Shown in pieces: positions 18,741 through 54,896 of a stretch of DNA of 64,000 nucleotides (its first letter is position 1; each line of letters starts with the position of its first letter). Origin of the DNA: an uncultured Bacteroidales bacterium (lineage in GTDB: Bacteria > Bacteroidota > Bacteroidia > Bacteroidales > F082); contig ONKA01000003.1 in the NCBI GenBank assembly GCA_900318265.1, forward strand, positions 1 through 64,000, written 5' to 3'. Position numbers and translations under genes: made by a program. The notes beneath the pieces were generated by a model. The model was given only the letters and a program-made list of their open reading frames with translations. It searched no databases and was not told where the DNA came from.

Positions 18741-20279
18741 ATGATTACATTCAATGACAGAATCACGCTGGAAGAAGTTGAAAAAGTGCTGTATTCCAAT
18801 GAGAAAATACAGGTTTCGGAGGCGTGGATGAACCGTGTGGAGGCTTGCTACCGCTTTTTGGAAAAGTTTGCTTCCGACAAAGTCATTTATGGCATCAATA
18901 CGGGCTTTGGACCCATGGCACAATGGCGTGTCGACGACAAGTATCTCAATGACCTTCAATATAATATCATCCGCAGCCACTCCACGGGTGCTGGCGAGCC
19001 TTTAGGCGACATCTATGTGAAGTCGGCCATGATTGCCCGCCTCGGCACGGTGCTGCAATGCCGTTCGGGCGTGCATACCGACGTGGCGAAACTGCTCGTT
19101 GAATTCATCAACCGCGAGATATTTCCTTTCATTCCACAACATGGTAGCGTAGGCGCCAGCGGCGACTTGGTGCAATTGGCCCATATCGCCCTCTGCCTCA
19201 TAGGCGAAGGCGAAGTGCACTACCACGGCCAGTGGAGACCTACGGCCGAGGTGATGAAGGAAAATGGCCTTACTCCGCTCAAGATGCACATCCGCGAAGG
19301 CCTTTCGATCACCAACGGCACTTCGGTGATGACCGGCATCAGCGTGGTCAACCAGCATAACGCTGAGACTTTGCTCGACTGGGCTACACTCGCCGCTGTT
19401 TGGATGAATGAAATCGCTTCTTCGTTCGACGATTACATGTCGGAAGGCGAGAACAACTGCCGCCGTCATGAAGGCCAACAGATTGTTGCCCGCCGCCTGC
19501 GCGAACTCTCAGAAGGCTCGCAATGCCTCAAAAAACGCGCCCACGAACTCTACGACTACGGTCACTCCGACGTGAAGGTCTTTGAGCACAAGGTGCAGGC
19601 CTATTATTCGTTGCGTTGCACACCGCAGATCCTAGGTCCCATTTGCGACACGCTGAAATATACCCGTCAGATCCTTGAAGACGAACTCAACTCGGCTTGC
19701 GACAACCCCATCGTCGACCCAGAGTCGGAGTATGTCTATCACGGCGGCAACTTCCACGGCGATTACATCTCCTTGGAAGAAGACAAGGTGAAGATTGCCT
19801 TGGTGCGTCTCTGCATGACGGCTGAGCGTCAACTCAACTACCTCTTCCATGACCGCATCAACGGCATCCTGCCACCTTTCCTCAACCTCGGCACACTGGG
19901 ACTGAACTACGGCATGCAAGCCTGCCAGTTCACAGCCACTTCGACGACTGCCGAATGCCAGACTCTGGCCATGCCCAACTACGTGCACAGCATCCCCAAC
20001 AACAACGACAATCAGGACATCGTCAGCATGGGTACCAACAGCGCTTTGCTCTGCAAGCAAGTGGTGGAGAACTGCTTCCAGGTGATGGCCATCCAATACA
20101 TCGCCTTGGCACAGGCCACCGACTGCTTGAAGATTGCTGACAAACTGGCGCCCACGTCGCGTAAAATGTACGACAAAGTGCGTGAGATCATCCCGCTCTT
20201 CATTGAGGATACGCCGTTCTACAAGGAAATCGCCGAAGTTGAGAACTATCTGAAAACCAATCCTTTGAAATTGAAATGA
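18741..20279 (+). CDS. Aromatic amino acid ammonia-lyase (HAL/TAL/PAL family)
   Basis: Removes ammonia from an aromatic amino acid using the MIO cofactor formed from Ala139-Ser140-Gly141 (GSVGASGDLVQLAH). The catalytic Tyr is in YGINTGFG (Tyr50). The selectivity loop reads IIRSHSTG (Ser79-His80), which resembles histidine lyases. Context points instead to tyrosine or phenylalanine, giving a coumaroyl or cinnamoyl starter: the gene heads an aryl-polyene-like cluster and no hut genes are present. Length (512) is normal. The next gene, a ketoreductase, starts on an ATGA overlap, so the two are translationally coupled. Confidence 0.93.
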   Translation: MITFNDRITLEEVEKVLYSNEKIQVSEAWMNRVEACYRFLEKFASDKVIYGINTGFGPMAQWRVDDKYLNDLQYNIIRSHSTGAGEPLGDIYVKSAMIARLGTVLQCRSGVHTDVAKLLVEFINREIFPFIPQHGSVGASGDLVQLAHIALCLIGEGEVHYHGQWRPTAEVMKENGLTPLKMHIREGLSITNGTSVMTGISVVNQHNAETLLDWATLAAVWMNEIASSFDDYMSEGENNCRRHEGQQIVARRLRELSEGSQCLKKRAHELYDYGHSDVKVFEHKVQAYYSLRCTPQILGPICDTLKYTRQILEDELNSACDNPIVDPESEYVYHGGNFHGDYISLEEDKVKIALVRLCMTAERQLNYLFHDRINGILPPFLNLGTLGLNYGMQACQFTATSTTAECQTLAMPNYVHSIPNNNDNQDIVSMGTNSALLCKQVVENCFQVMAIQYIALAQATDCLKIADKLAPTSRKMYDKVREIIPLFIEDTPFYKEIAEVENYLKTNPLKLK

Positions 20280-21007
20280 CAAAATACGCCCTCATTACTG
20301 GTGCCTCACGTGGCTTGGGAAAAGCCATCGCCTTGCGCTTGGCCACCGACGGTTTTGCCGTTATCATCAACTACCAATCCAACAAAGAAGCTGCCGAAGA
20401 CACGTTGAAGCAAGTGCAAGAAGCAGGCGGCACGGGTGAGTTGTTGCCCTTCGATGTCTCGAACCCGCAGGCCATTGACACCGCCCTTGAATCATGGCAA
20501 AACGCTCATCCTGACGACTACATCTCGGTGTTGGTCAACAATGCGGGCATCCGTCAGGACAACCTCATGATCTTCATGCAGGAGGAGCAGTGGAACCGCG
20601 TGTTGGACACCACCTTGAACGGCTTTTTCTACATCACCCGTCGCCTGTTGAAGGACATGATGACCCACCGCAAAGGCCGCATCATCAACATGGCTTCGCT
20701 GTCGGGATTGAAAGGCCTGCCGGGGCAGACCAACTATTCCGCTGCCAAGGCTGCCCTTATCGGAGCTACCAAGGCATTGGCACAAGAAGTGGCTGCTCGC
20801 AAGGTGACGGTCAATGCCATCGCTCCTGGGTTCATCGCTTCCGATATGACCAAGGACCTTGACGAAGCCGAGTTAAAGAAACTCATCCCGTTGGGGCGCT
20901 TCGGCAAACCCGAAGAAGTAGCCGCCTTGACCAGTTTTCTTGCTTCCGATGATGCCGCTTACATCACGGGGCAGGTGATTTCTATTAACGGAGGGCTTTA
21001 TACATAA
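20276..21007 (+). CDS. 3-oxoacyl-ACP reductase (FabG-like, ApeQ-type)
   Basis: NADPH-dependent ketoreductase of the SDR family that reduces the beta-keto group after each chain extension. Seen: dinucleotide motif TGASRGLGKAI at 8-18, NNAGI, the catalytic set NMASLSGLKGLPGQTNYSAAK (Ser, Tyr, Lys) and a C-terminal INGGLYT. Length 243 is typical. It starts inside the stop of the ammonia-lyase gene and is followed by a palindromic repeat before the first ketosynthase. Confidence 0.93.
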   Translation: MTKYALITGASRGLGKAIALRLATDGFAVIINYQSNKEAAEDTLKQVQEAGGTGELLPFDVSNPQAIDTALESWQNAHPDDYISVLVNNAGIRQDNLMIFMQEEQWNRVLDTTLNGFFYITRRLLKDMMTHRKGRIINMASLSGLKGLPGQTNYSAAKAALIGATKALAQEVAARKVTVNAIAPGFIASDMTKDLDEAELKKLIPLGRFGKPEEVAALTSFLASDDAAYITGQVISINGGLYT

Positions 21008-21015
21008 AATACTGG

Positions 21016-21082: not shown

Positions 21083-22312
21083 ATGAATCATAATAGAAGA
21101 GTCGTCATCACAGGCATGGGCATCTGGTCCTGCTTGGGAAAGAACAAAGAAGAGGTTGAAGCCGCCTTGCGCGAAGGCCGTTCGGGCATCGGCATCGACC
21201 CGATACGCACCGAATACGGCTATCGTTCCCCTTTGACGGGCATCGTGGAGAAGCCCCAGCTGAAAGGCGTGCTCGACCGCAAGCTCCGCATGTATCTCGC
21301 CGAAGAAGGCGAATATGCCTATATGGCCACCTTGGAAGCCTTCAAACAGGCGGGTATCGACGATGCTTACCTACTTGAAAATGAAGTGGGCGTGTTGTTC
21401 GGCAACGACTCATCGGCCAAGGCGGTCATCGAGTCGCATGAGATTACGTTGCAGAAGAAAGACACCACTTTGGTGGGATCGGCTGCTATCTTCCAGTCGA
21501 TGAACTCCACCGTGACGATGAACCTCTCCACCATCTTCCACCTCAAAGGCATCAACATGACCATAAGCGCGGCTTGCGCCAGTGGCTCGCATTCCATTGG
21601 CTTGGGCGCTTTGCTCATCCGCAACGGTTTGCAAGATATGGTGCTCTGTGGCGGTGCCCAAGAGACCAACTACCTCTCGATGGGCAGCTTTGACGGCATC
21701 AGCGCCTTCTCGACCCGTGTCGACGAACCCACCAAGGCCTCTCGTCCCTTCGATCGCGACCGCGATGGCCTCGTACCCAGCGGCGGTGCAGCGGCCTTGG
21801 TGCTTGAAGACTACGACCATGCCGTGGCCCGTGGTGCCACCATTTTAGCCGAGGTGTGCGGCTATGGCTTCTCTTCAAACGGCGAGAGCCACATCTCACA
21901 ACCAAGCGAAGAAGGTTGCCAGCGAGCCATGACCCGCGCCATGCAAGAGGCAGGTGTGAAAGCCGAAGACATTGACTACGTGAACGCCCATGCCACCTCG
22001 ACGCCCCAAGGCGACATGTTTGAAGCCATGGCTTTGAAGAATATGTTTGGTGTTACAAAAACACCTATTTCGTCAACCAAGTCAATGACAGGCCACGAGT
22101 GCTGGATGGCCGGCGCCAGCGAGATCGTCTACTGCATCCTGATGATGCACGGCGGCTTCATCGCTCCCAACATCAACTTCGAGCACCCCGATGAATATTC
22201 GGAAGGCCTCAACATCGTCAATGTGACAACGAACAAGACTTTAAACACTATCCTATCCAATTCCTTCGGTTTTGGTGGGACAAATAGTGCATTGGTAATC
22301 AAGAAAATATAA
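21083..22312 (+). CDS. Ketosynthase (FabF/ApeO-R-like), catalytically complete
   Basis: A 409-residue beta-ketoacyl-ACP synthase. The Cys-His-His triad is intact: ISAACASGSHS (Cys165), NAHATSTPQGD and KSMTGHECWMAGA, with the gate-region ending NSFGFGGTNSAL. It condenses malonyl-ACP with the growing chain. Sequence character is that of FabF-like synthases in aryl-polyene clusters rather than housekeeping FabF. It is followed after five bases by the methyltransferase gene. Confidence 0.92.
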   Translation: MNHNRRVVITGMGIWSCLGKNKEEVEAALREGRSGIGIDPIRTEYGYRSPLTGIVEKPQLKGVLDRKLRMYLAEEGEYAYMATLEAFKQAGIDDAYLLENEVGVLFGNDSSAKAVIESHEITLQKKDTTLVGSAAIFQSMNSTVTMNLSTIFHLKGINMTISAACASGSHSIGLGALLIRNGLQDMVLCGGAQETNYLSMGSFDGISAFSTRVDEPTKASRPFDRDRDGLVPSGGAAALVLEDYDHAVARGATILAEVCGYGFSSNGESHISQPSEEGCQRAMTRAMQEAGVKAEDIDYVNAHATSTPQGDMFEAMALKNMFGVTKTPISSTKSMTGHECWMAGASEIVYCILMMHGGFIAPNINFEHPDEYSEGLNIVNVTTNKTLNTILSNSFGFGGTNSALVIKKI

Positions 22313-22317: not shown

Positions 22318-23415
22318 ATGGAATTGTTTCCTGCTTTAGAAAAAGCTTATACCAAAGAACATAAAAAAGCCGGCGAAGCCCAAGAGTTGGCCTATTTCAT
22401 CGCTTTTGGCCCCATCATTTTCCAAGTGGGTCGACTGATGATCAAGTTTGGCATCTTGGACATGCTGCGCGACAACGAACAGGGCTTGACCCAAGCCGAA
22501 ATCGCTGAAAAGACAGGTCTCTCGCCTTACGCCGTTAAGGTGTTAATGGAAGGCTCACTCTGCATCGGCCTCGTGTTGGTGAACACCGAAACCGACCGTT
22601 TCACACTGTCGAAGACAGGTTGGTTCCTGCTGACCGACCCCGCCATCCGTGTCAACATCGACTTCAACCACGATGTCAACTACGAAGGCTGGTTCCATCT
22701 CGAAGAAGCCTTGAAAGAAGGCCGTCCCGCAGGTTTGGAGCATTTTGGCAGCTGGCCGACCATCTACGAAGGCCTCTCGCAACTGCCGCCGCAAGTGCAG
22801 AAGAGTTGGTTCGGCTTCGACCATTACTATTCCGACCACTCTTTCGACCAGGCCTTGCAGTTGCTCTTTGGCGACCATCCCAAGACCGTTTTGGATGTGG
22901 GCGGCAACACCGGTCGCTGGGCCCTACGCTGCGTCGACTATGACGAGAATGTCAATGTCACCATCATGGACCTGCCGCAACAACTCGAGATGATGCGTGA
23001 GTTCACCAAAGGCAAGAAGGGCGCCGACCGCATCGACGGCTATGGCATCAACCTTTTGGACGACAGCCAGCAGTTCCCGACCGACAAGCATTACGACATC
23101 ATCTGGATGAGCCAGTTCCTCGACTGCTTTGGCGAGGACGAGATCATGAGCATCGTGTCGCGTGCCGCCAAGATTATGGACAAGGACAGCCGCCTCTGCA
23201 TCATGGAGACCTTCTGGGACCGCCAACGTTATTCTTCCGCGGCCTTTGCCCTCACGATGACAAGCCTGTATTTCACCGCCTTGGCCAACGGCAACAGCAA
23301 GATGTACCACAGTGGCGACATGGCCGAATTGGTCAGGAAGGCTGGCCTTGAGGTGGAGACCATCCACGACGCCCTCGGCCTTGGACATAGCATTATGGTC
23401 TGCAAAAAACCCTAA
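22318..23415 (+). CDS. SAM-dependent O-methyltransferase (winged-helix dimerisation domain)
   Basis: A 365-residue methyltransferase of the plant-COMT/acetylserotonin type. The N-terminal winged helix is visible (ILDMLRDNEQGLTQAEIAEKTGLSPYAVKVLMEGSL split over residues 43-85). The SAM loop VLDVGGNTGRWAL lies near 191, then the acidic DLPQQ strand and IWMSQFLDCF. Aryl-polyene heads are often methylated or O-methylated, so the aryl head group is the likely target; this is inference from context. Starts six bases after the ketosynthase stop. Confidence 0.87.
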   Translation: MELFPALEKAYTKEHKKAGEAQELAYFIAFGPIIFQVGRLMIKFGILDMLRDNEQGLTQAEIAEKTGLSPYAVKVLMEGSLCIGLVLVNTETDRFTLSKTGWFLLTDPAIRVNIDFNHDVNYEGWFHLEEALKEGRPAGLEHFGSWPTIYEGLSQLPPQVQKSWFGFDHYYSDHSFDQALQLLFGDHPKTVLDVGGNTGRWALRCVDYDENVNVTIMDLPQQLEMMREFTKGKKGADRIDGYGINLLDDSQQFPTDKHYDIIWMSQFLDCFGEDEIMSIVSRAAKIMDKDSRLCIMETFWDRQRYSSAAFALTMTSLYFTALANGNSKMYHSGDMAELVRKAGLEVETIHDALGLGHSIMVCKKP

Positions 23416-23462: not shown

Positions 23463-23705
23463 ATGGACAGACAAGAAATAGAAGCAAAAGTCAAGGAGTT
23501 CCTCATCGAGGACCTTGAGATTGACGAAGAAAAGATCCAGCCGGAAGCCCGTCTAAAAGAAGACATCGGCATCGACAGCCTCGATTTCGTCGACATCGTG
23601 GTCATCGTCGAGAAGAAGTTTGGCTTCAAGATCAAGACCGAAGAGATGGCGAATGTGAAGACATTCAACGATTTCTGCGACTACATCGAGAAAAAGATCG
23701 CCTGA
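23463..23705 (+). CDS. Acyl carrier protein
   Basis: An 80-residue acidic carrier protein; Ser39 in IGIDSLDFVDIV is the phosphopantetheine site. It holds the growing polyene as a thioester. The ATG at 23463 (MDRQEIEAKVKEF) is chosen over one at 23448 because the latter lies in the AT-rich repeat spacer. It directly precedes the acyltransferase gene, matching the order seen in aryl-polyene clusters. Confidence 0.93.
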   Translation: MDRQEIEAKVKEFLIEDLEIDEEKIQPEARLKEDIGIDSLDFVDIVVIVEKKFGFKIKTEEMANVKTFNDFCDYIEKKIA

Positions 23706-23712: not shown

Positions 23713-24606
23713 ATGGCTGACGCCTTGCAACATAACGAATGGTCGGGCAAGACCGACGGATTGCCGTGGATGCAGCGTGGACTCATCCCGTTTTTCCGTG
23801 TATCGCCGCTATGGCTGCCCTACGGCATCATGGCCATGGTGGTGCCTTTCTATATGCTGTTCAGCAGGAAAGGCTATCAAGCCATGTACCAGTTCTTCCG
23901 CAAGCGTTTCGGCTTTGGACCTTGGAAGTCGTTTTGGAAAGTCTATGCCAACCACTTCCGTTTCGGACAAGTCATCTTGGACCGTTTTGGCGTGTATGCA
24001 GGCAAGAAATACCATTTCATCAAGGAAGGTCAGGAGCAGATGGATGCCTTGGAGACGCACCCCGAGGGTTTCATGATGTTGAGCAGTCATGTGGGCAACT
24101 ACGAGATGGGCGGTTATTCGTTGCAACCCAAGCAAAAGAAAATCAATGCTTTGGTGTTTGCTGGCGAGACGGCCACGGTGATGGAAAATCGCCAACGTTT
24201 GCTGTCGCAAAACAATATGGGCATGATCCTCGTGAAGGAAGACCTCTCGCATCTGTTTGCCTTGAATGCCGCGCTTGACAATGGCGAAATCGTCAGCATG
24301 CCTGGCGACCGCATCTTCGGCTCACAGAAGACCCTCGACTGCCAATTCTTTGGTGCAACGGCGCATTTTCCCATGGGTGGTTTTGCCTTGGCGGTGCAGA
24401 AGTCAGTACAAGTGCTGGCCGTCTTCGTGATGAAAGAAGGCATGAGGACCTATCACGCATACGTGCGTCCCATCCAATGCGACCGCACCGCCAACAAACG
24501 CGAACAAATGCAACAATTGGCACAAGCCTTTGCCACGCAGCTCGAAGACATCGTACGCCGCTATCCCACGCAATGGTTCAACTATTTTGATTTTTGGAAA
24601 GCATGA
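23713..24606 (+). CDS. LpxL/HtrB-like acyltransferase
   Basis: A 297-residue inner-membrane acyltransferase. An N-terminal membrane span (YGIMAMVVPFYMLF, about 36-49) and the LpxL-type motif LSSHVGNYEMGGY near residue 125 (the H-x4-E equivalent) are visible, with a later PGDRIFGS. Such enzymes move an acyl chain from ACP to a lipid or sugar acceptor; here the polyene or a fatty acyl chain is the probable cargo. Its ATGA end overlaps the dehydratase start, so the genes are coupled. Confidence 0.85.
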   Translation: MADALQHNEWSGKTDGLPWMQRGLIPFFRVSPLWLPYGIMAMVVPFYMLFSRKGYQAMYQFFRKRFGFGPWKSFWKVYANHFRFGQVILDRFGVYAGKKYHFIKEGQEQMDALETHPEGFMMLSSHVGNYEMGGYSLQPKQKKINALVFAGETATVMENRQRLLSQNNMGMILVKEDLSHLFALNAALDNGEIVSMPGDRIFGSQKTLDCQFFGATAHFPMGGFALAVQKSVQVLAVFVMKEGMRTYHAYVRPIQCDRTANKREQMQQLAQAFATQLEDIVRRYPTQWFNYFDFWKA

Positions 24607-25040
24607 GAGCGATTGAAGACATAGCCTTGAAGGAATTGATTCCGCAGCGCCCGCCGTTCGTGATGATTGACCGATTGGTGTCGAGCGACAAGGTGTATTC
24701 CGTGACGGAACTCGAAGTGCGCCCCGACAACCTGTTTGTCGACAACGGTCGCATGTCAGCAGCTGGCTTGGTGGAAAACATCGCCCAAACCTGTGCCGCG
24801 CGTATCGGCTACATCAATCTCAATAGCGGCGAGACAGTCAAGATAGGTGTGATAGGTTCCATTAGCAATCTGAACATCGCACGCACACCGAAAGTGGGTG
24901 AGCATTTGGTGACGACCATACAACTGCTCGAAGAGGTGTTTCAGGTGACTTTGGTGGAAGCCATAGTCAGGAGTGGAGAAGAGGAATTGGCGCGTTGCAA
25001 CATGAAAATCGCCTTGACAGACATTGATTCAAAAGATTGA
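24603..25040 (+). CDS. ApeP-like 3-hydroxyacyl-ACP dehydratase (hot-dog fold)
   Basis: A 145-residue single hot-dog protein starting MRAIEDIALKELIPQRPPFVMIDRL, the FabZ/ApeP N-terminal pattern with Gln where FabZ usually has His (LPHRYPF). The helix SAAGLVENIAQTCAARIGY corresponds to the conserved AQ-containing helix of ApeP-like dehydratases. It would dehydrate the beta-hydroxy intermediate to the trans double bonds of the polyene. The start is fixed by ATGA overlap with the acyltransferase gene; the longer start at 24594 is less likely. Confidence 0.8.
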   Translation: MRAIEDIALKELIPQRPPFVMIDRLVSSDKVYSVTELEVRPDNLFVDNGRMSAAGLVENIAQTCAARIGYINLNSGETVKIGVIGSISNLNIARTPKVGEHLVTTIQLLEEVFQVTLVEAIVRSGEEELARCNMKIALTDIDSKD

Positions 25041-25045: not shown

Positions 25046-25480
25046 ATGAAGAAAGATACAGTATTATCGGTCACCAAGAGTTTCGACATCCGCTTCAGTG
25101 AAGTGGATTCGATGGGCGTGGTGTGGCATGGCAACTATGCCAAGTACTTCGAAGACGCCCGCGAGGAATTCGGTCGGAAATACGACTTGGGCTACCTGAT
25201 GATGTACGACCAAGGCTTCTTTGAGCCCATCGTCGAGCTTTCTTTCAAATACAAACGACCGATGATTTATGGCATGAAACCCGAGGTGGAGCTCATCTAC
25301 CGTCCCACCGACGCCGCCAAGATCATCTTCGACTACGAAATCCGCGATGCCGCGACCAAGGAAGTCTTCGTCACCGGTCATTCGGTGCAGGTCTTCATGG
25401 ACAAGGTCACGCATCAGTTGGTCTTGTACTGCCCCAAGTTTTACGAGGAATGGAAACAAAGATGGGAGGTAAACGTATGA
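25046..25480 (+). CDS. 4HBT-type acyl thioesterase (YbgC-like, ApeK-like)
   Basis: A 144-residue hot-dog thioesterase. FDIRFSEVDSMGVVWHGNYAKYFEDAREEF is the 4HBT signature region, with the Asp of EVDSMG as the likely catalytic acid. It could release or edit acyl chains on the carrier protein. An in-frame TTG at 25037 is rejected in favour of ATG at 25046. The next gene begins on an ATGA overlap with a strong GGGAGG ribosome site. Confidence 0.87.
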   Translation: MKKDTVLSVTKSFDIRFSEVDSMGVVWHGNYAKYFEDAREEFGRKYDLGYLMMYDQGFFEPIVELSFKYKRPMIYGMKPEVELIYRPTDAAKIIFDYEIRDAATKEVFVTGHSVQVFMDKVTHQLVLYCPKFYEEWKQRWEVNV

Positions 25481-26622
25481 TTGTCAGTGTGGCCAACAAT
25501 ATCATCTCGCCCTTGGGCATGAGCACCACCGAGAACTATGCCGCTGTCAAGGCAGGGCATTCGGCGCTCAGACGCTATGAGGGCAAATGGGACCTGCCCG
25601 AGCCTTTTGTGGCTTCGTTGGTGGATCGCGACAAGGTGGAACAAGCTTTTGCTGTCTTGGCCGCCAAAGGAGAATACACTTTCTTCGAGAAAATGATCAT
25701 CTTGTCGGCTTCGCGTGCCATCCAAGAGGCGGGCATCGACACGGCCTCGGAGCGGGTGCTCTTCATCCTCTCCACCACCAAGGGCAACGTGTTCCTTTTG
25801 GACAAGAGAGAGACAGGTTTTTCAGAGGAAAGAGTGCTGCTAGGCTCGGCCGCCCGTCAGATGACGGATTTCTTCCATAATCCCAATCCACCGATTGTGG
25901 TGTCAAACGCCTGCATCTCGGGCGTGTGTGCCCAGATTGAAGCCATGCGCAATTTGGAAAGCGGCTGTTTCGACTATGTGGTGACGGTAGGCTGCGACGT
26001 GCAGTCGGCCTTCATCGTTTCTGGCTTCCAGTCGTTCAAGGCCTTGTCGCCCGAACCTTGCAAGCCCTTCGATGCCAACCGCTGTGGCTTGAACCTCGGC
26101 GATGCGGCTGCGACCATCATTTATACACGAAAAGCAACAGTTAATTCCAACGAATGGGTGGCCTGCCGTGGCGCCATCCGCAACGACGCCAACCACATCA
26201 GCGGTCCGTCGCGCACGGGCGAAGGCAGTTACAGGGCATTGAAAGTCGCCCTCGGCGATGTCGATCCCAATCAAATCGCTTTCATCAACGCTCACGGCAC
26301 CGCAACGATGTATAACGACGAGATGGAATCGGTGGCCATCGAAAGGGCGGGGCTCTCACAAGTGCCTGTCAACGGATTGAAAGGCTACTACGGTCATACC
26401 ATGGGTGCCGCTGGCATCCTTGAGACCATCCTCTCGATGTACGCCATCGACGAACACAACATATTGGCTACCAGAGGCTATGAGACCTTGGGCGTCACGC
26501 ATCCTTTGGTGGTCTCCAACCAAAACCAATCTACCGACAAACGGATGTTCATCAAGCTGCTCTCGGGCTTCGGCGGCTGCAATGCGGCCTTGCTTTTTGC
26601 GAAAGGAGGTATGCCATGCTGA
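25477..26622 (+). CDS. Ketosynthase 2, catalytically complete
   Basis: A 381-residue FabF-like synthase with Cys in VSNACISGVCAQ, His in INAHGTATMYND and His in YYGHTMGAAG, so all three catalytic residues are present. The start at 25477 overlaps the thioesterase stop (ATGA) and follows GGGAGGT at 25464-25470, which decides it over ATGs at 25450 and 25462. It is immediately followed, with a seven-base overlap, by a Cys-less ketosynthase-like protein, the arrangement of a KS and chain-length-factor pair. Confidence 0.9.
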   Translation: MIVSVANNIISPLGMSTTENYAAVKAGHSALRRYEGKWDLPEPFVASLVDRDKVEQAFAVLAAKGEYTFFEKMIILSASRAIQEAGIDTASERVLFILSTTKGNVFLLDKRETGFSEERVLLGSAARQMTDFFHNPNPPIVVSNACISGVCAQIEAMRNLESGCFDYVVTVGCDVQSAFIVSGFQSFKALSPEPCKPFDANRCGLNLGDAAATIIYTRKATVNSNEWVACRGAIRNDANHISGPSRTGEGSYRALKVALGDVDPNQIAFINAHGTATMYNDEMESVAIERAGLSQVPVNGLKGYYGHTMGAAGILETILSMYAIDEHNILATRGYETLGVTHPLVVSNQNQSTDKRMFIKLLSGFGGCNAALLFAKGGMPC

Positions 26623-27524
26623 AACACTTTGTCATGATCACCCCTGAGGCCGTGAAGCTCAACGGTATCGAAATGAGCCATGCCGAGCAAGGCAACGCTT
26701 TGTTGACCGAGTTGTATCGTGCCCACGTGGGCGACTATCCCAAGTTCTTCAAGATGGACACGCTGAGCAAGCTGGGTTTTGTGGCTTCGGAGATGCTGCT
26801 GAAGGACGAAGGCGAGGAACGTTTTGTGCCGCGCGAGGACCGTGCCGTGGTGCTATTCAACAGGACGGCATCGTTGCAGGCCGACACCAACTATCAGGTC
26901 ACGATACAAGATCCTGAAAACTTCTTCCCCAGCCCTGCGGCTTTCGTCTACACCCTGCCTAACATCGTCACAGGCGAGATCGCCATCCGCAACAAATTTT
27001 ACGGCGAGACCTCATTTATCGTCATGGAATCGTGCGACGCGCAAATTATGGCACGGCAATTGATGAATGCCTTCCAAGACCCGATGACGCAAAGCATCCT
27101 CGGTGGTTGGCTCGATTGCACCGACGAAAACCACTTCGAGGCGCGTCTTTTTTTGGTTGAAAAACAACAATTTGACAACATAGAATCATTAGAAAACGAA
27201 CTGTTAAACAGTCTTAATATATCAACAATTCAACGATTAAACAATCAACAATTAAACAATAACAAAATGGACGAACTGATTTACACCTTAAAGCAACAGA
27301 TCATCGAGGCTTTGAACCTTGAAGACATGACCCCCGAAGACATCGACGAGAACGCCTCTCTGTTTGGCGAAGGCCTTGGCCTTGATTCCATCGACGCCCT
27401 TGAGCTCATCGTGCTGATGGAGAAGAACTATGGCATCAAGCTGCAAGACCCCTCCATGGGCAAGGAAATCTTCAAGTCGGTGGCCGTGATGGCTGATTAC
27501 ATCCAGAAGAACAGAACGAAGTAA
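26616..27524 (+). CDS. Cys-less ketosynthase-like protein fused to an acyl carrier protein
   Basis: A 302-residue fusion. Residues 1-185 resemble the N-terminal half of a ketosynthase (AVVLFNRTASLQAD, LPNIVTGEIAIRNKFYGETS) without the active Cys; such short partners occur in aryl-polyene clusters. Residues 218-302 form a complete carrier protein (GLGLDSIDALELIVLMEK). The linker (about 190-217) is the translated AT-rich spacer repeat and carries no stop. The ATG at 27267 (MDELIYTLKQQ) could still start the carrier separately. Either a natural fusion by stop loss or two products is possible. Confidence 0.8.
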   Translation: MLKHFVMITPEAVKLNGIEMSHAEQGNALLTELYRAHVGDYPKFFKMDTLSKLGFVASEMLLKDEGEERFVPREDRAVVLFNRTASLQADTNYQVTIQDPENFFPSPAAFVYTLPNIVTGEIAIRNKFYGETSFIVMESCDAQIMARQLMNAFQDPMTQSILGGWLDCTDENHFEARLFLVEKQQFDNIESLENELLNSLNISTIQRLNNQQLNNNKMDELIYTLKQQIIEALNLEDMTPEDIDENASLFGEGLGLDSIDALELIVLMEKNYGIKLQDPSMGKEIFKSVAVMADYIQKNRTK

Positions 27525-30864: not shown

Positions 30865-30869
30865 CGGTG

Positions 30870-33305: not shown

Positions 33306-33346
33306 TCAAAGTCAAATGTTTAACTAACTATCTAAAACTTAAAAAA

Positions 33347-46914: not shown

Positions 46915-47798
46915 AGAAATTAATACTTGTATTCAGTCTATTATTGTTAACAGGGATGACGAAGGCACAGGTGAAGATTTGGGAAGGATTGGACATCAGC
47001 TATGGTAGACGAGTCAAATTGACGTCTTTCTTGGCCGACGAAAATCCCACAGGCACCGCTGTCATCGTTTGTCCCGGAGGAAGCTATTATTGGCTTGACA
47101 AGAAAAACGAAGGCGATACCGTTGCCATGTGGCTGCAAAGCCAAGGCATCTCCGCTTTTGTGCTCGAATACCGCGCCGCTGGTATTCCTGCGTTTGCTTA
47201 CCGCCACAGAGCCATCTTCAGAGGACGACAACACCCTGATATGATTACCGATGCACAACGGGCGCTGCAATGGGTGCGTACCCATGCCGAAGAATACCAT
47301 ATCAACCCCGACAAAGTGGGAATGTTGGGCTTCTCGGCTGGCGGCCATCTGGCGCTGTCGACGGCTTGGTTCCACTATCACGACTTCCTCAAAGACGCAG
47401 GGGTCGAAAACGAGACCAACCTTCGCCCTGCTTTTGTGGGCGCCATCTATCCTGTGGTGACCATGGTGAAGCCTTACGTCCACAAGCGTTCGCGCCGTGG
47501 ACTGCTCAGCGAGAAGCATCACCGCGACCCGGTGATGTGTGATTCGCTCTCACTGGAACGTCATGTCCCAGCCGACTGCCCGCCGGTTTTCCTCGCCAAC
47601 TGCGTCGACGACCCTGTGGTCGACTACCGCAACTCGGTGGTCCTCGACTCGGCCTTGACCGCAGCCCATGTGGACCACCGTTACATCCAATTTCAGACAG
47701 GCGGCCATAGCTTTGGCGCCAGCGAGAAACGTGGCACCGCTGAGTGCCGCGAATGGAAGACGGAATTCCTCAAATGGCTCGCCGAAATCAAGTTTTAA
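46911..47798 (+). CDS. Secreted alpha/beta hydrolase (esterase-like)
   Basis: A 295-residue exported esterase-type hydrolase with signal peptide MKKLILVFSLLLLTGMTKAQ. Oxyanion region VIVCPGGSYYWLDKKNEG, nucleophile elbow GMLGFSAGGHLA, acid in NCVDDPVVDY and His in TGGHSFGASE are visible. It resembles xylan-acetyl-esterase/BD-FAE-type hydrolases. In this context it might deacylate or trim the exported lipid, but a simple polysaccharide esterase cannot be excluded. Starts on an ATGA overlap. Confidence 0.82.
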   Translation: MKKLILVFSLLLLTGMTKAQVKIWEGLDISYGRRVKLTSFLADENPTGTAVIVCPGGSYYWLDKKNEGDTVAMWLQSQGISAFVLEYRAAGIPAFAYRHRAIFRGRQHPDMITDAQRALQWVRTHAEEYHINPDKVGMLGFSAGGHLALSTAWFHYHDFLKDAGVENETNLRPAFVGAIYPVVTMVKPYVHKRSRRGLLSEKHHRDPVMCDSLSLERHVPADCPPVFLANCVDDPVVDYRNSVVLDSALTAAHVDHRYIQFQTGGHSFGASEKRGTAECREWKTEFLKWLAEIKF

Positions 47799-47815: not shown

Positions 47816-49114
47816 ATGATCAACAACGACATAGAATACCAGTCCGTAGAACAGATCAAAGTCTATCAAGAAGGCTTGTTGCACGATGCCTTGGTCTATT
47901 TGGAGGCACATTCGCCCTACTACCAGAGGATGTTCAAGAGCTATGGCATCCAAATCGACAAGATCAAGCATATCGAGGACTTGGTGAAGATTCCTTTCAC
48001 GGAAAAGAAAGACCTGCAACTCTTCAACGATGAGTTTTTGTGCTGCCCGAAAGATAAAATCATCGACTATATCACCACATCGGGCACCTTGGGCGACCCC
48101 GTCACCTTCGGCTGCTCAGAGAAAGACTTGCAACGTTTGGCCTTCAATGAGAAGAAGTCGTTTGAATGCGCTGGCGTACATGCAGGCAATGTGGTGCAGC
48201 TGATGACCACCTTGGACAAGCGTTTCATGGCTGGACTGGCTTATTTCCTCGGTCTTCGTGAATTGGGCGCGGGTGTCATCCGTGTCGGCAACGGCATCCC
48301 CGAATTGCAGTGGGACACCATCCGTCGCATCAAGCCCGACACCATCATGTGCGTGCCGTCGTTTATTCTGAAACTGATCCAATATGCCGAAGAACACGGC
48401 ATCGACTATAAGAACAGCAGCATCCGTCGTATCATCGGCATCGGCGAAGGCTTGCGCGACCAGGACTTCAACCTCAATCTCTTGGGTAAGAAGATCAAAG
48501 AAAAATGGGATGTGCAGCTCTTTGCCACCTATTCCTCGACGGAGATGGGCGCCACCTTCTCGGAATGCGAGTATGGCCTCGGCGGTCATGTGCATCCCGA
48601 GTTGATTATCGTCGAAATCATCGGTGAAGACGGTCTGCCCGTCCCCGATGGCCAGCCAGGTGAAATCGTGGTCACCACTCTGGGCGTGGAAGCCATGCCG
48701 CTGCTGCGTTTCCGTACGGGCGACATTGCCGCCAAGATCGTCGACCAATGCAAATGTGGCCGTAACTCCTATCGCCTCACGCCACTTGTGGGCCGTAAGA
48801 ACAACATGATTAAGTTGAAAGGCACTACGCTCTATCCGCCTGCGATCAACGACGTGTTGGACAACACCGACTATGTGGAGAACTACGTCATCGAGGTGCG
48901 CCAAAGTGAGGCCGGCACCGATGATGTGGTGGTGAAGATAGGCCTGAAATACCAACCCGACTTTGATGTCGTCAAGGTGTTGAAGGACAGCTTCCGCTCA
49001 CGCATCCGCGTGGCACCCGCCATCGAAATCCATCCCGTGGACGAAATCAGGCAGATCAACTACCCCGCCAAGAGCCGCAAACCCATCAAATTCATCGACT
49101 TAAGAAACAAATGA
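47816..49114 (+). CDS. PaaK-like phenylacetate-CoA ligase family enzyme
   Basis: A 432-residue adenylate-forming enzyme of the phenylacetate-CoA ligase/capsule PaaK type. The P-loop-like TTSGTLGDPV, the STEMGATF motif, RFRTGDIA and the hinge region LVGRKNNMIKLKGTTLYP are present. It activates aryl or acyl acids with ATP; cinnamate or coumarate from the ammonia-lyase is an obvious candidate. Start ATG 47816 is 18 bases after the hydrolase stop; the frame extends further upstream without a better start. Overlaps the next gene by four bases. Confidence 0.88.
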   Translation: MINNDIEYQSVEQIKVYQEGLLHDALVYLEAHSPYYQRMFKSYGIQIDKIKHIEDLVKIPFTEKKDLQLFNDEFLCCPKDKIIDYITTSGTLGDPVTFGCSEKDLQRLAFNEKKSFECAGVHAGNVVQLMTTLDKRFMAGLAYFLGLRELGAGVIRVGNGIPELQWDTIRRIKPDTIMCVPSFILKLIQYAEEHGIDYKNSSIRRIIGIGEGLRDQDFNLNLLGKKIKEKWDVQLFATYSSTEMGATFSECEYGLGGHVHPELIIVEIIGEDGLPVPDGQPGEIVVTTLGVEAMPLLRFRTGDIAAKIVDQCKCGRNSYRLTPLVGRKNNMIKLKGTTLYPPAINDVLDNTDYVENYVIEVRQSEAGTDDVVVKIGLKYQPDFDVVKVLKDSFRSRIRVAPAIEIHPVDEIRQINYPAKSRKPIKFIDLRNK

Positions 49115-50235
49115 CGACCAACTTCGACGATATTAGACCCTTCAACGAGGATGAGATTCCTGCCGCCACGCAACGCATGGCCGACAGTAATGTGATCCCC
49201 GCCATCGCCCAATATCTCGGTGTCCCAGCAGAGGCCATTCGTGACCGCATCAGAAACATCAAGACCTTACAGGAATTCCAGTTGGGCCTGCTCAAAGAGG
49301 TGATTGAAATCTTGCTGAAAAAGACCACCACGCAATTCGATTGGTCGGGGGTGGAGAACATCGATGAGAAGAAGCCTTACCTATTTGTTTCCAACCACCG
49401 CGACATTGTGCTCGACGCGATGTTTTTACAATATATCTTGTGCGCAGCCGGACAAAACACCTGTCAGATTACCTTCGGCAGCAACCTGATGTCGCATCCT
49501 TTTGTCATCGACTTTGGCAAGGTCAACAAGATGTTTCGCACCGAGCGTGGAGGTTCGCCCAAGGAGTTCTACAACAGCATGATGCACATGTCTGAGTATA
49601 TGCGTCATGTCATCACCGAAGTGAATGAGTCGGTGTGGATTGCCCAGCGCAACGGCCGCACCAAAAACGGCATCGACGCCACCGACCCGGCCATCATCAA
49701 GATGTTCGGCATGAGCCGCCGTGACGACAGGGTGGTCTCGTTGGCTGAGCTCAATATCGTACCTGTGGCGGTGTCCTACGAATGGGAGTCGTGCGACAAA
49801 CTGAAGACCTTGGAGTTGTATCTGACCAAGAAAAACGGCCATTATGAGAAGAAACCGGGCGAAGATCTTAACAGCATCCTGATGGGCATCATGCAGCCCA
49901 AGGGTCATGTGCATTTCCATATCTGTCCTCAGGTTACTGAAGATGATCTGAATGCCTTGAATGACTGTCCTTCGGGCGAGTTCTACAAGCGCGTGGCCGA
50001 GTTGATGGACAGCCGCATCAATCCGTATTTCTATCTCCATCCGAACAATTATATCGCCCACGATTTACGAAGCGGCACTGACACTTACGCTGAGCATTAC
50101 ACCACCGAGCAAAAGGCCACGTTCATCAAGTACATGGATTGGATGAACGACTATCCTGATTTTGACCGTTCAGAATTGGAGGAAATTTTCTTGGGGATTT
50201 ATGCTAATCCAGTGGATGTGAGAGCAAAGTATTAG
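49111..50235 (+). CDS. Acyltransferase with glycerol-3-phosphate-acyltransferase-like motifs
   Basis: A 374-residue acyltransferase. FVSNHRDIVLDAMFLQ matches the NHRDIVLD motif of a PlsC-related Bacteroidetes family, and NKMFRTERGGSPKEFYN and VWIAQRNGRTKNGID follow in the usual order. It probably acylates a glycerol-phosphate type acceptor; the acyl donor may be the polyene. Coupled to the PaaK-like gene by overlap. A promoter-bearing spacer follows. Confidence 0.8.
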   Translation: MTTNFDDIRPFNEDEIPAATQRMADSNVIPAIAQYLGVPAEAIRDRIRNIKTLQEFQLGLLKEVIEILLKKTTTQFDWSGVENIDEKKPYLFVSNHRDIVLDAMFLQYILCAAGQNTCQITFGSNLMSHPFVIDFGKVNKMFRTERGGSPKEFYNSMMHMSEYMRHVITEVNESVWIAQRNGRTKNGIDATDPAIIKMFGMSRRDDRVVSLAELNIVPVAVSYEWESCDKLKTLELYLTKKNGHYEKKPGEDLNSILMGIMQPKGHVHFHICPQVTEDDLNALNDCPSGEFYKRVAELMDSRINPYFYLHPNNYIAHDLRSGTDTYAEHYTTEQKATFIKYMDWMNDYPDFDRSELEEIFLGIYANPVDVRAKY

Positions 50236-50493: not shown

Positions 50494-51045
50494 ATGAAGA
50501 AACTAGTATTGTCATTTGTGCTTATGATTGCAGGTTTGGTAGCAATTGCACAGGAAAACGACATCTCGAAAAAAATGGTACGAGATGACTACCACCTTTG
50601 TTTTGTACAGAATAATGAAGTGATTCCCGATGTGGAACTACAGAAACTTCTAAGTGAAGATGTTTATAATAGTTATCAAACTGGAAGAGTTCTATACAAA
50701 GTTGGAAATGGAGTAAAAACAGGTGGATGGATTGCTTTTGGTGCTGGAATGGGACTGGGTCTTACTGGATTAATGTTAAGTATGTACGAAGAGTCTCAAT
50801 CTTTAAGAACGACTGGTGCAGTAATGTATGTTGTGGGTATTTCAGCATACTTGAATAGTTTCCTACTGATACCTTCAGGATATATCCTTCGTGGAATAGG
50901 TGCTGGAAAAATCAGCAGAATAGCTGAGGAATACAACCAAAACACAACCGTTTCCTATCGCCTCTCACCTGCCGTTATGCCCGTAAATGTTCCTCAATCA
51001 CAAGGAAATATGGCGTACGGAATGACGTTTAGCGTCAATTTCTAG
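50494..51045 (+). CDS. Putative envelope membrane protein, paralogue B
   Basis: A 183-residue protein with signal peptide MKKLVLSFVLMIAGLVAIAQ and two hydrophobic stretches (TGGWIAFGAGMGLGLTGLML; ISAYLNSFLLIPSGYILRGIG). The tail SPAVMPV...GMTFSVNF is beta-rich. It aligns with paralogue A at 36596-37165. Its stop TAG shares the palindrome CTAG with the stop of the converging ligase gene. Function unknown; its presence in the same cluster suggests a paired envelope role. Confidence 0.7.
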   Translation: MKKLVLSFVLMIAGLVAIAQENDISKKMVRDDYHLCFVQNNEVIPDVELQKLLSEDVYNSYQTGRVLYKVGNGVKTGGWIAFGAGMGLGLTGLMLSMYEESQSLRTTGAVMYVVGISAYLNSFLLIPSGYILRGIGAGKISRIAEEYNQNTTVSYRLSPAVMPVNVPQSQGNMAYGMTFSVNF

Positions 51046-52658
51046 TCTTTGATCAGTTTTTTGTAATCGACCTTTCCGTTGCCGTTCATCGGCAAGGCAT
51101 CAATGAATTCGATGGCCGCTGGAACGAGGTGAATTGGTAAGTTCGCCTCACAGTAGGCCATCAGTTCTTTAATGGTGGCTTGGGTGTCGGATTCCTTCAG
51201 CACCACAAACGCCTTGGGCAAATGACTTTCCGAATGGTCGGGGTCCTGCATAGGCACCACGGCACAAGCTGCCACAGAGGGATGCCGCATAATGCAGTCC
51301 TCAATCTCCACGGGAAACACCTTGGAGCCGTCGTGACGGACAATCATGCGCTTTTTGCGGCCTATTACGAAGATGTTGCCCTCTTCGTCCACATAGCCCA
51401 TGTCGCCGGTGTGGAGCCATTGGTTACCATCAGCATGGATCTGGATGAGGTTGTTGGTGGCTTCTTCGTTTTTATAGTAGCCGAGGAACTTCAATTCCGA
51501 GCGGACGCAAATCTCATCGTCGAAGGTCTTGACCTCGTAACATGTCACGGGTTTTCCTGAAAAGCCTTGCACGTATTGTTTCTCGCTGCCTTGCGGTGTG
51601 AAAGAGATGACACCAGCGGTCTCAGTCATGCCGTAGGCTTTCGTGACGTCGTAGCGGCAGCCACCTTGATGCAAGCACTCGTTGATGCGTTTCTCGAAAG
51701 CCGTGTTCAGGATATCGCCAGCCACATTGATGGATTTCAGGTAAGAAAAGTCTTCCTTGACCTCTTTTTTCTCGTTGACGAAATCCCAATAGGCAGGCAC
51801 CGAGAAGACGTGCTGCGGCTTGTATTGGGTGAGGAGTTTCAGGAATTCCTCGCGGGGTGCGATGGGGATGACGACGACGCGCATGCCTTGGAACAAGGGA
51901 AGCATCAGGGTGTTGGCCCCAAAGAAAGCAAAGATGGGCAAGATACAGAGCGCAGTGTCGTCGCTCGAAATGTTGTTGAGAACTGGTGGGTTGGGAAACA
52001 TGGAGTGCATGATGTTCTCGGTGGAGAGCATCACGCTTTTCACCGTACCCGTGGTGCCGCTGGTTTGGAACAGGGCAGCCATCTCGTCGGGAATCCAATG
52101 GTATGGCTCGGTCTCATCCAAGCCTTGTGCCGTCTTGTAAAAGTCTTTCCAATGGCAGAATTTCTTGTGTTTCCAGAACACCTTTCTCCTTCCGTTGAAC
52201 CACTCGCCTACGCCAAACCAGAACGAGGCTACTGGAATGGAATCGGCACCCGAACACACCACGACTTTCTCGACGTTAAGCTGAGCTTCAGCCGTAGCCA
52301 AACTGGCTGCGTAAAGTCCCATGACGAACAGCATCTTGGAGTGTGTCCTGTCGACGATCTTGCAAAACTCTTCGGGGGTGTATCTGACATCGATCATGCA
52401 GGGGATGGCGCCGATTTTGTTCAGTGCCAGGAAACACATCAACGACTCGGGCATGGAAGGCAAAGCCAGACAAATGATGTCGCCACGTTTCACCCCATGT
52501 TTTCGGAAAGCCATAGCTGCGATGTCAACGCGTTCCAGTAACTGCTTGAACGTCGTTTCCGTCTTGAAATAGCACAAAGCAACCTTGTCGGAATACTTTT
52601 TTGCAGCCTCCCTGAACGTTTCGTATAAGCCTAGGTTTTCTTTCATATTGGCGGGCAT
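51042..52658 (-). CDS. AMP-binding acyl-CoA/ACP synthetase (ApeH-like)
   Basis: A 538-residue class I adenylate-forming ligase: FQTSGTTGTVKSVMLS (P-loop), VTKAYGMTETAGVISF, LHTGDMGYVDEEGNIFVIGRKKRMIVRHDGSKVFP and the catalytic Lys in GNGKVDYKKL. It activates a carboxylic acid to an acyl-adenylate and then a thioester; in aryl-polyene clusters this loads the aryl starter or the anchor fatty acid. It is the only cluster gene on the minus strand and converges on paralogue B. ATG at 52646 is an alternative start. Confidence 0.92.
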   Translation of the reverse strand: MPANMKENLGLYETFREAAKKYSDKVALCYFKTETTFKQLLERVDIAAMAFRKHGVKRGDIICLALPSMPESLMCFLALNKIGAIPCMIDVRYTPEEFCKIVDRTHSKMLFVMGLYAASLATAEAQLNVEKVVVCSGADSIPVASFWFGVGEWFNGRRKVFWKHKKFCHWKDFYKTAQGLDETEPYHWIPDEMAALFQTSGTTGTVKSVMLSTENIMHSMFPNPPVLNNISSDDTALCILPIFAFFGANTLMLPLFQGMRVVVIPIAPREEFLKLLTQYKPQHVFSVPAYWDFVNEKKEVKEDFSYLKSINVAGDILNTAFEKRINECLHQGGCRYDVTKAYGMTETAGVISFTPQGSEKQYVQGFSGKPVTCYEVKTFDDEICVRSELKFLGYYKNEEATNNLIQIHADGNQWLHTGDMGYVDEEGNIFVIGRKKRMIVRHDGSKVFPVEIEDCIMRHPSVAACAVVPMQDPDHSESHLPKAFVVLKESDTQATIKELMAYCEANLPIHLVPAAIEFIDALPMNGNGKVDYKKLIKD

Positions 52659-52809: not shown

Positions 52810-53865
52810 ATGGCCATAGAAAATTATCCTAATCAGCGTAAGAAGCATTGCGAGACAGGAACGCTTCTGAATATGCTGAAATACTATGGCTACGAAGGAA
52901 TGAGCGAGACCATGGCCTTCGGCATAGGTTCGGGATTCAATTTTGTTTATTCGCCTTTCTTGAGGATGCGTGGCGTGAAGTTGCCGATGTTTCGTATCCG
53001 TCCCGGACTGATTGCTAAGAACTATTGCGAAAGAATGGGCATTGGTTTCCATTATGAGGAATTTGGCAATCGTGTCAACAAATCAATGAAGGCCCTCGAC
53101 GAATTGGTCGACCAGCAGATACCCGTTGGCCTTGTGGTCAATGTGGCCCGCCTTCATTATTTTTCGCCTGTGGTCAACGAGTCAAACTTCAATGGACATG
53201 TGCTCACGGTCATCGGCAAAGAAGGGTCGAATTACACCATCGCCGATTCCGACACGCGCTTGACCACCGACGACTACGTGTTCTTGACAGAAGACGTCAT
53301 GCGCAAGAGCCGTTTTGTATCAGGCTTGGCTGCCCCTCATGGCAAAATGTTCTATATCGATCCGCTTCCTAAAGGCTTTGGTGAGAACATGGACCTCAAG
53401 CCTGCCATAATACAAGGTCTTGAAGAGTCGTGCCGACGGATGCTTCGGGTGCCTGTGCCGTTCTATGGCTGGACGGGTTTGAATTGTTTCGCCAGAAGCC
53501 TTAAGATGTGGAAGGTGTGGTTCTCCGAGAATCTGATAGGTTTCATTTTGCTTTGGATTTATCGGTTGATTGAGACGACGGGCACTGGTGGAGCAGGCCA
53601 TCGTTACATGTACGCTGACTTTCTCAACGAAGCCGCTGAGTTGTTTGGTAGCGAAGTGTTGGCCGACTGCGCCAATCTGATGAATGCCGATGCCGATTCG
53701 TGGCGCCAGTTCTCGCTCGACAGCCGTCGTTACATGAAGAGTGACAACATCACCTTGAGGGAGATGTCAGAGTTGCTGGAGACGATCGGTCAGCAGGAAA
53801 AACGGATTTTCGAAAAGATCGACACAGAGTTCTTGCACTCCGACTTGGTTCGTAAATATGCATAA
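52810..53865 (+). CDS. BtrH N-terminal-domain protein (possible acyl transfer)
   Basis: A 351-residue protein whose start NQRKKHCETGTLLNMLKYYG (conserved Cys-x-T near residue 12) and later words VGLVVNVARLHYF, FNGHVLTVIGKEG and YTIADSDTR match the BtrH_N family, a papain-like fold. BtrH in butirosin biosynthesis moves an acyl group from a carrier protein to the aminoglycoside. A carrier-to-acceptor acyl transfer in this cluster is a reasonable inference. The C-terminal 150 residues are helical and unassigned. Starts after its own promoter; 20 bases separate it from gpsA. Confidence 0.75.
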   Translation: MAIENYPNQRKKHCETGTLLNMLKYYGYEGMSETMAFGIGSGFNFVYSPFLRMRGVKLPMFRIRPGLIAKNYCERMGIGFHYEEFGNRVNKSMKALDELVDQQIPVGLVVNVARLHYFSPVVNESNFNGHVLTVIGKEGSNYTIADSDTRLTTDDYVFLTEDVMRKSRFVSGLAAPHGKMFYIDPLPKGFGENMDLKPAIIQGLEESCRRMLRVPVPFYGWTGLNCFARSLKMWKVWFSENLIGFILLWIYRLIETTGTGGAGHRYMYADFLNEAAELFGSEVLADCANLMNADADSWRQFSLDSRRYMKSDNITLREMSELLETIGQQEKRIFEKIDTEFLHSDLVRKYA

Positions 53866-53885
53866 ATCAAACAGAGAATAACGTC

Positions 53886-54896
53886 ATGGGTCCGCTCATC
53901 CAAAAGACATCGCGTTGCGCCGTCATCGGACACGGCAGTTGGGCTACGGCCATCACTAAAGTGTTGATCATGAACGAGTCGTCGGTCTGCTGGTACGTCC
54001 GCAACCAGGAAGTGCTTGAGTCGCTGCGCACCGAAGGCCGCAACTGTCGCTACCTCTCCGATGTCGAGTTCGACATGAGCCGCATCCACCTCACTGATGA
54101 TGTGAACGAGACCGTGGAATGGGCTGACATCATCTTTTTAGTGACCCCCGCACCTTACTTGAAGTGCTATCTCTCCGACTTGAAGACCCCACTAAAAGAC
54201 AAGATGGTGGTTTCGGCCATCAAGGGCATCATACCCAAGGACAATCTGTTTGTCACGGATTATCTGAAGCAAAACTATGGTTTGACGGATGCGCAGTTGT
54301 GCTGCATCAGCGGTCCGACGCATGCCGAGGAGGTGAGTCACGGAAGACTGACCTACATGACTTTCGCCTGTTCCAACATAGGCAACGCCCGCGTCATAGG
54401 TGAGAAGCTGAAGGCGCCCTTCGTCAAGGTGAATTGCTTGAGGGACATGAGTTATCTGGAGCATTCTTCGGTGCTGAAAAACATCTATTCCGTCATGGTG
54501 GGCATGGCAATGGGCTTGGGCTACGGCGACAACTTCATCGCCGTGTTGGTCTCCAACTGCATCAAGGAGATGTATTTCTTGTTGTCGCCCCAAAGCGTCA
54601 ACGACCTAACCAAGTTCAACCCGTCCAATTTCTTCGGCGACTTGCTCGTGTCGTGCTATTCGAGCCACAGCCGCAACCGTCAGCTGGGTGTGTTGATCGG
54701 TCGTGGTAACACAGTGAAGACCGCCCTCAACGAGATGACCATGGTGGCCGAGGGTTATTATTCCTCGGCGATGTTGCCTTTCCTGCCCGAGGAGCAGCGC
54801 CGTCAGCTTCCCATTGCCGAGAAAGCCTATCAAGTGCTGCATCAGGGCATGTCGGCCCGCAAGGCCATGAAAGACCTTGAAGACCTTTTGGAATAA
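53886..54896 (+). CDS. gpsA: NAD(P)-dependent glycerol-3-phosphate dehydrogenase
   Basis: A 336-residue GpsA-type dehydrogenase that makes sn-glycerol 3-phosphate from dihydroxyacetone phosphate. The dinucleotide motif is CAVIGHGSWATAITK; SGPTHAEEV, the substrate-Lys region LKNIYSVMVGMAMGLGYGDNF and GDLLVSCYSSHSRNRQLG follow. Glycerol 3-phosphate is the acceptor used by PlsB/PlsC-type acyltransferases, so its place beside such genes hints at a glycerolipid anchor. It may equally be the housekeeping gpsA. Converges on the zinc-ribbon gene with 12 bases between. Confidence 0.92.
   Translation: MGPLIQKTSRCAVIGHGSWATAITKVLIMNESSVCWYVRNQEVLESLRTEGRNCRYLSDVEFDMSRIHLTDDVNETVEWADIIFLVTPAPYLKCYLSDLKTPLKDKMVVSAIKGIIPKDNLFVTDYLKQNYGLTDAQLCCISGPTHAEEVSHGRLTYMTFACSNIGNARVIGEKLKAPFVKVNCLRDMSYLEHSSVLKNIYSVMVGMAMGLGYGDNFIAVLVSNCIKEMYFLLSPQSVNDLTKFNPSNFFGDLLVSCYSSHSRNRQLGVLIGRGNTVKTALNEMTMVAEGYYSSAMLPFLPEEQRRQLPIAEKAYQVLHQGMSARKAMKDLEDLLE

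Follow-up and report, generated by a model that had tools for sequence, protein, structure and literature searches.

A predicted flexirubin-type (aryl-polyene) gene cluster with a conserved radical SAM and esterase block in gut-type Bacteroidales

The contig ONKA01000003.1 of an uncultured Bacteroidales bacterium (assembly GCA_900318265.1, lineage F082) was analysed over positions 1 to 64,000, a stretch referred to below as the window. Judging by its gene content, the region 18,741–54,896 of the window is a flexirubin-type (aryl-polyene, APE) pigment-lipid cluster of gut-type Bacteroidales. The cluster is real and conserved and its overall kind is already known; this lineage has a variant form of it, set apart by clear, testable gene differences. 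The distinctive part is a block in which one or two CrtI-family oxidoreductase units are followed by a radical S-adenosylmethionine (SAM) protein, a protein of 120 amino acids (aa), a secreted esterase, the ligase FlxY and a PlsC-like acyltransferase.

Pfam scans of 40 open reading frames (ORFs) of the window and NCBIfam scans with flexirubin-pathway models (Table 1) recovered every gene class that had been named in a reading of the sequence alone (hereafter the sequence-only reading), the FabZ-like protein through a weak NCBIfam match only. The aryl-polyene-type pathway proposed there was borne out: FlxA, the FlxJ-family protein and FlxY pass the cut-offs of their models, and Pfam identified the set of ketosynthase (KS)/chain-length factor (CLF), acyl carrier protein (ACP), ketoreductase and dehydratase. 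The same reading had listed a number of genes as additions to this core, and several of them proved to be standard flx-cluster genes, since its PaaK-like ligase is FlxY, and CrtI and sometimes PlsC-type genes adjoin FlxY in ordinary flx clusters. The BtrH-like protein, another supposed addition, is of the DarH kind, though it scores under the DarH cut-off. Of the two PlsC-related acyltransferases predicted, both domains are present, but one of them is the C-terminal domain (residues 920–1030) of the MMPL protein. In the other, the spacing of the His-Asp motif is one residue off HxxxxD, the usual spacing in acyltransferases.

Table 1. Genes of the predicted cluster, with the evidence for each assignment
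Feature	Position	Strand	Evidence and remarks
FlxA, tyrosine ammonia-lyase (start of aryl head)	18741..20279	+	NCBIfam FlxA 842 bits, cut-off 700; ASGD (methylidene-imidazolone, MIO) motif, residue 139
Ketoreductase, FabG-like	20276..21007	+	Pfam
Beta-ketoacyl synthase with active-site Cys	21083..22312	+	Pfam; ACAS motif
FlxJ-family methyltransferase	22318..23415	+	NCBIfam 595 bits, cut-off 560; absent from the list of the sequence-only reading
Acyl carrier protein	23463..23705	+	Pfam PP-binding; DSL
HtrB/LpxL-like acyltransferase	23713..24606	+	Pfam
FabZ-like hot-dog dehydratase	24603..25040	+	NCBIfam FabZ E 4.1e-6, under cut-off; no Pfam match
4HBT thioesterase	25046..25480	+	Pfam
Second ketosynthase, Cys kept	25450..26622	+	Pfam; ACIS motif
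Single protein for which the flx cluster of genome G312 and similar ones have two genes (one for about 205 aa, one for an ACP)	26616..27524	+	Pfam; G312 comparison
KS-CLF fusion, split over two genes in G312 and similar flx clusters	27525..29843	+	Pfam; G312 comparison
Small DMT/ArnE-like membrane protein, in the position of the polysaccharide deacetylase	29848..30210	+	Pfam; NCBIfam ArnE below cut-off; gene order
LolA-like carrier	30207..30845	+	Pfam
Six other ORFs (TPR, DUF3244, unknowns, type IX secretion system (T9SS) tail)	30867-37165		Pfam; present in few relatives
FabA-like dehydratase	37178..37555	+	Pfam
GT2 glycosyltransferase	37542..38294	+	Pfam
MMPL exporter fused to PlsC acyltransferase domain, 1205 aa	38522..42139	+	Pfam; HQSHLD at 930
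Tandem CrtI-family oxidoreductase	42136..45126	+	Pfam; halves 34% identical to each other
Radical SAM protein, CxxxCxxC	45168..46502	+	Pfam 30.0 bits, cut-off 29.5; frame starts ~45168, the listed ORF start 45039 being too early
120-aa protein, next to radical SAM gene	46552..46914	+	No Pfam or NCBIfam match; 80/80 loci
Secreted alpha/beta-hydrolase esterase (BD-FAE), GFSAG	46911..47798	+	Pfam; signal peptide by eye
FlxY, 4-coumarate CoA-ligase type	47816..49114	+	NCBIfam 696 bits, cut-off 520; start ~47816
PlsC-like acyltransferase	49111..50235	+	Pfam 34.2 bits, cut-off 23; HRDIVLD
Second AMP-dependent acyl ligase (ACS)	51042..52658	-	Pfam; 11/80 loci
BtrH_N/DUF4872 protein, DarH-like	52810..53865	+	246.5 bits, under DarH cut-off of 300; start ~52810; 9/80 loci
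gpsA	53886..54896	+	Sole copy found in genome; 12/80 loci

A scan with the radical SAM protein returned 335 related stretches, the best 80 of which were analysed; 24 of these loci are incomplete on at least one side. By their titles, 79 belong to Bacteroidota and one (L094) to Clostridiales, and most are metagenome-assembled genomes from ruminants or other animal guts. The gene order around the radical SAM gene is constant in the 80 loci: the 120-aa gene follows it in every one, and CrtI precedes it in 73. The idea of a conserved group of further genes beside the core thus held for the radical SAM (80/80), 120-aa, esterase (74/80) and PlsC (67/80) genes, and matches to CrtI (74/80) and FlxY (71/80) are similarly frequent. 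The sequence-only reading had itself named unconserved flanking genes as evidence against it, and this is what was found for the ACS, BtrH and gpsA genes at the right edge, which are poorly conserved with the block (Table 1). A role of gpsA as a dedicated lipid-anchor gene is unlikely, as it is the only copy found in the genome and accompanies few loci; it is probably a housekeeping gene. The tandem form of CrtI is variable, because a fused ORF occurs in 31 of the 80 loci, a pair of genes in 12 and a single gene in 30, and 7 loci show no CrtI. Each half of the window protein is 32–36% identical to the single CrtI proteins of flx clusters and 22–24% identical to a second, distant CrtI-like protein of G312.

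For comparison, the FlxY neighbourhoods of 15 genomes from other families, one of them in the same order, were taken as ordinary flx regions. Some of the queries came from two members of this set, G312 and G297; NCBIfam scans of genes from G312 gave the C45 acyltransferase, LolB2, DarB and DarH queries their names, the deacetylase query scores under the cut-offs of its models, and the DarA query, having no NCBIfam match, was named from its position next to DarB. Matches to C45 and to the deacetylase were present in 12 of the 15 regions each, to CrtI in 11 and to LolB2 in 10, whereas the radical SAM and 120-aa proteins were matched in none and PlsC and the esterase in one each, the latter weakly. 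Conversely, the C45, deacetylase, LolB2, DarA and DarB queries found nothing in the window or the 80 loci, the window being the part of its genome covered by the deacetylase, LolB2 and DarA searches, and C45 was not found in the whole genome of the window at E<=1e-30.

FlxA and FlxY have been shown to be a tyrosine ammonia-lyase and a 4-coumarate CoA-ligase, respectively, in work on the flexirubin clusters of Chitinophaga pinensis and Flavobacterium johnsoniae (PMC3992019). With these clusters, as that paper describes them, the window shares FlxA, FlxY, several ketosynthases, dehydratases, a thioesterase, an acyltransferase, LolA, a glycosyltransferase and an exporter, as well as the FlxJ family by NCBIfam. 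It differs from this type, which was represented in our comparisons by other flx-positive genomes, in lacking DarB, C45, deacetylase and LolB2 matches, in having the radical SAM protein, the 120-aa protein and the secreted esterase, and in the KS-CLF, ACP and CrtI fusions. APE lipids contain glucosamine and phosphoglycerol. The APE cluster of E. coli CFT073 has in common with the window a type II KS-based polyene synthesis and LolA-like and RND-type export (PMC8253772). In E. coli the polyene is joined to a membrane lipid whose nature stayed open in that paper, and the pathway of the window starts from an ammonia-lyase, whereas the 18-gene table given there contains no lyase, CrtI, radical SAM or carbohydrate-type esterase gene. 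A cluster of Bacteroides xylanisolvens has been termed flexirubin-like (PMC12940132). In the open-access literature, which covers few subscription papers and no bioRxiv preprints, no paper was found that combines 'flexirubin' with 'radical SAM', describes the block, or identifies the corresponding lipid of anaerobic Bacteroidales.

Among 295 Bacteroidales genomes, 64 have a FlxY match; of these 64, 46 have C45, 33 DarB and 24 the radical SAM protein (E<=1e-90). In 12 genomes the radical SAM gene is no more than 6 kb away from FlxY; 11 of them lack C45, and 9 lack DarB as well as C45. It stands apart from FlxY or on another contig in the remaining 12, all of which have C45. A Fisher test in this comparison gave p 4.5e-7, taking related genomes as independent. 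A strict tie between the radical SAM gene and the loss of DarB was rejected, as 10 of the 24 genomes have DarB. So was the notion that the radical SAM protein replaces C45: the radical SAM gene begins 36 bases after the C45 match in G489, G549, G647 and G731, and in G605 the two matches are 112 apart in the order CrtI-CrtI-C45-radical SAM-120 aa-FlxY. Since some flx clusters hold both genes together, the radical SAM protein did not take over from C45. Because the radical SAM pair also occurs in flx genomes keeping C45, it may be older than the loss of C45. In a sample of the whole phylum (E<=1e-90) the radical SAM gene appeared in the genome of the window only (1/345); 3 of the 21 rows shown belong to the same order, and the sample therefore says little about Bacteroidales.

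The esterase shows a different relation to C45. FlxY regions were compared in 40 of the 64 genomes (36 selected from 60, plus G000, G014, G041 and G297); the 40 include every C45-lacking genome (18) and 22 of the 46 C45-positive ones. The esterase stands beside FlxY in 14 of the 40, and none of the 14 has C45; among the 26 where no esterase was seen by FlxY, 22 have C45. A FlxY tree of 62 rows (midpoint root; L236 was dropped for its short alignment) is divided by a branch with support 99/93. One side holds 23 esterase rows and 6 rows in which neither esterase nor C45 was found; the opposite side holds 21 C45 rows (one of them, G567, long-branched and placed at the midpoint root), 11 rows from another order of the same class and one row with neither gene (G562, on a 4.4-kb contig). 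Loci L084, L088 and L094 gave no esterase match. A hydrophobic N-terminus is common to C45 and the esterase, as judged by eye. Since the distribution is near-complementary, the esterase may stand in place of C45, a functional swap being the simplest reading of these sequence comparisons.

The radical SAM pair was also seen at a second locus in related genomes (L164 and L165 of G017, L231, L232), beside DarH-like, ACP and sulfotransferase genes, the sulfotransferase being identified by Pfam. The second locus of G017 also holds KS/CLF genes, a further two radical SAM genes and a KASIII gene that distantly resembles DarB. A sulfated product of this locus is possible.

The reading preferred here, with a probability of roughly 0.6, is that the window encodes a flexirubin-type aryl-polyene pathway of a Bacteroidales lineage mostly without the dialkylresorcinol (DAR) partner, in which the radical SAM pair adds a modification and the esterase replaces C45. 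By homology, FlxA would make 4-coumarate and FlxY would activate it, the ACP, KS, CLF, ketoreductase and dehydratase set would extend this starter to a polyene acid, and FlxJ would methylate the acid. The GT2, HtrB and PlsC-type enzymes would attach the polyene to a membrane lipid, in parallel with the attachment by such acyltransferases and GT2 proposed for the E. coli APE (PMC8253772). The MMPL and LolA proteins would then carry the polyene lipid to the outer membrane. The radical SAM and 120-aa proteins might perform an oxygen-independent step, most likely a methylation or a redox reaction, on the polyene or its anchor, and the secreted esterase would substitute for the exported C45 acyltransferase of ordinary flx clusters. 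The product would be a modified polyene lipid, as the sequence-only reading had suggested.

A number of observations weigh against this picture. The product chemistry and the radical SAM reaction are predictions, and the radical SAM protein matches a B12-binding domain weakly (Pfam 23.0 bits, cut-off 32.1). The radical SAM gene co-occurs with C45 in 13 of 24 genomes and so is no substitute for it, and the genomes are related, which means that the counts are not independent. The distribution of the esterase has gaps: four genomes lacking C45 also lack the esterase by FlxY (G554, G562 on its 4.4-kb contig, G625 and G716), and 6 of the 80 loci give no esterase match. Of the 14 genomes with the esterase by FlxY, 4 (G451, G453, G681 and G701) have no radical SAM match. 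Finally, G571 and G688 have the radical SAM and esterase genes by FlxY and no C45, yet DarB is present.

The radical SAM protein is well conserved. In an alignment of 29 rows the mean column identity is 85%, and C176, C180 and C183 of the CxxxCxxC motif are invariant. The prediction of a B12-type radical SAM enzyme held for the radical SAM match and was left doubtful for its B12 part, the cobalamin-binding domain being under cut-off; the N-terminus of the structural model, which is of low confidence (predicted local distance difference test, pLDDT, 57.9), consists of alternating strands and helices. AprD4 was the only PDB sequence match (E 1.9e-5) and the first fold match of this model (6fd2, 18% identity in the fold alignment). 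AprD4, a radical SAM diol dehydratase and the nearest solved sequence, works without cobalamin; its apramycin context is wholly different. In another reading the window protein is an AprD4-kind dehydratase or oxidoreductase, perhaps also without cobalamin, rather than a methylase. We regard this as rather doubtful: the fold matches include the methylases MgmA, TsrM and CysS as well as MiaB, and the model is poor. It is too poor for mechanism, and the matches do not separate methylation from dehydration or oxidation. The 120-aa protein gave no fold match at E<=0.001 (model pLDDT 79.3) and no better than E 0.049 in a PDB profile search.

A second alternative is that the cluster makes an ordinary aryl-polyene lipid and that the radical SAM pair acts on something else, being merely co-regulated. 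It would account for the occurrence of the pair beside the DarH-ACP-sulfotransferase module away from FlxY, for the 40 of 64 FlxY-positive Bacteroidales genomes with no match to the radical SAM protein, and for G001, in which it is present with no FlxY match. However, the gene follows CrtI in nearly all loci and C45 at 36 bases in four other genomes, and of the nine same-family genomes in which the radical SAM match is at 59–69% identity, eight also carry FlxY (G049 through a fragment only), so that this alternative seems unlikely.

The claim that a DAR partner is absent was upheld in so far as a search of the whole genome, whose completeness is 89%, gave no DarB, and the DarA query had no match in the window. 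The StlD/DarB model matched none of the 48 genomes with the cluster (the genome of the window and those belonging to 47 of the 80 loci) but all three of the flx genomes examined that lack the block. Of the three KASIII C-terminal matches in the genome, one on contig C27 lies beside a ketosynthase match; the two on C18 were rejected as DarB candidates, as they have no BLAST match to the DarB of G312 and lie among polysaccharide-looking genes, judged from ORF beginnings. The protein at 52810 is 31% identical to the DarH of G312; its count among the 80 loci was taken from the window BtrH query. A BtrH-like gene adjoins darA/darB in Azoarcus (PMC3949708). A true flexirubin, with its DAR part coming from unlinked or missed genes and joined by this DarH-like protein, would agree with the presence of that protein, with the incomplete genome, with the unlinked DarB of G297 (FlxY on C1, DarB on C2) and with the DarB genes elsewhere in G571 and G688, but it is improbable given the lack of DarB across the 48 genomes, the rarity of the DarH-like gene (9 of 80 loci) and the unsuitable KASIII genes.

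In a survey of 8,160 rumen genomes, aryl-polyene clusters formed the second most frequent class, with 2,800 of 14,814 clusters (PMC8241843). The comparison sets apart a lineage with a definable gene set, and it predicts that 'flexirubin' is a misleading label for such clusters when they have no resorcinol half. Should the radical SAM protein act on the polyene or its anchor, this would amount to a new radical reaction, and in a membrane pigment that is widespread. A tentative extension, less probable than the pathway preferred above, is that the radical SAM and 120-aa proteins constitute a new two-protein, oxygen-independent modifier of polyene or lipid chains which, with the swap of esterase for C45, marks a class of polyene lipids of the outer membrane that mostly lack DAR and are widespread among the Bacteroidales of rumen and gut.

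Several other features of the window were observed. Two small proteins with signal-like starts, alike by eye and with no Pfam or NCBIfam match, are encoded at 36545-37165, by FabA, and at 50494-51045, by the PlsC gene. Short interspersed repeats of the TTCGACAGGCTCAG type occur in frame, two each in the KS-CLF and MMPL genes, where they read LRQAQ. A YegS/diacylglycerol-kinase-like gene (17644-18606), divergent from FlxA, could supply a lipid precursor. Further upstream of the cluster, a Card1-like CARF nuclease gene lies at 13475-14656, and the far end of the window (56151-63999) is occupied by a SusC/SusD pair and, after it, a PNGase F-like protein that carries a type IX secretion tail.

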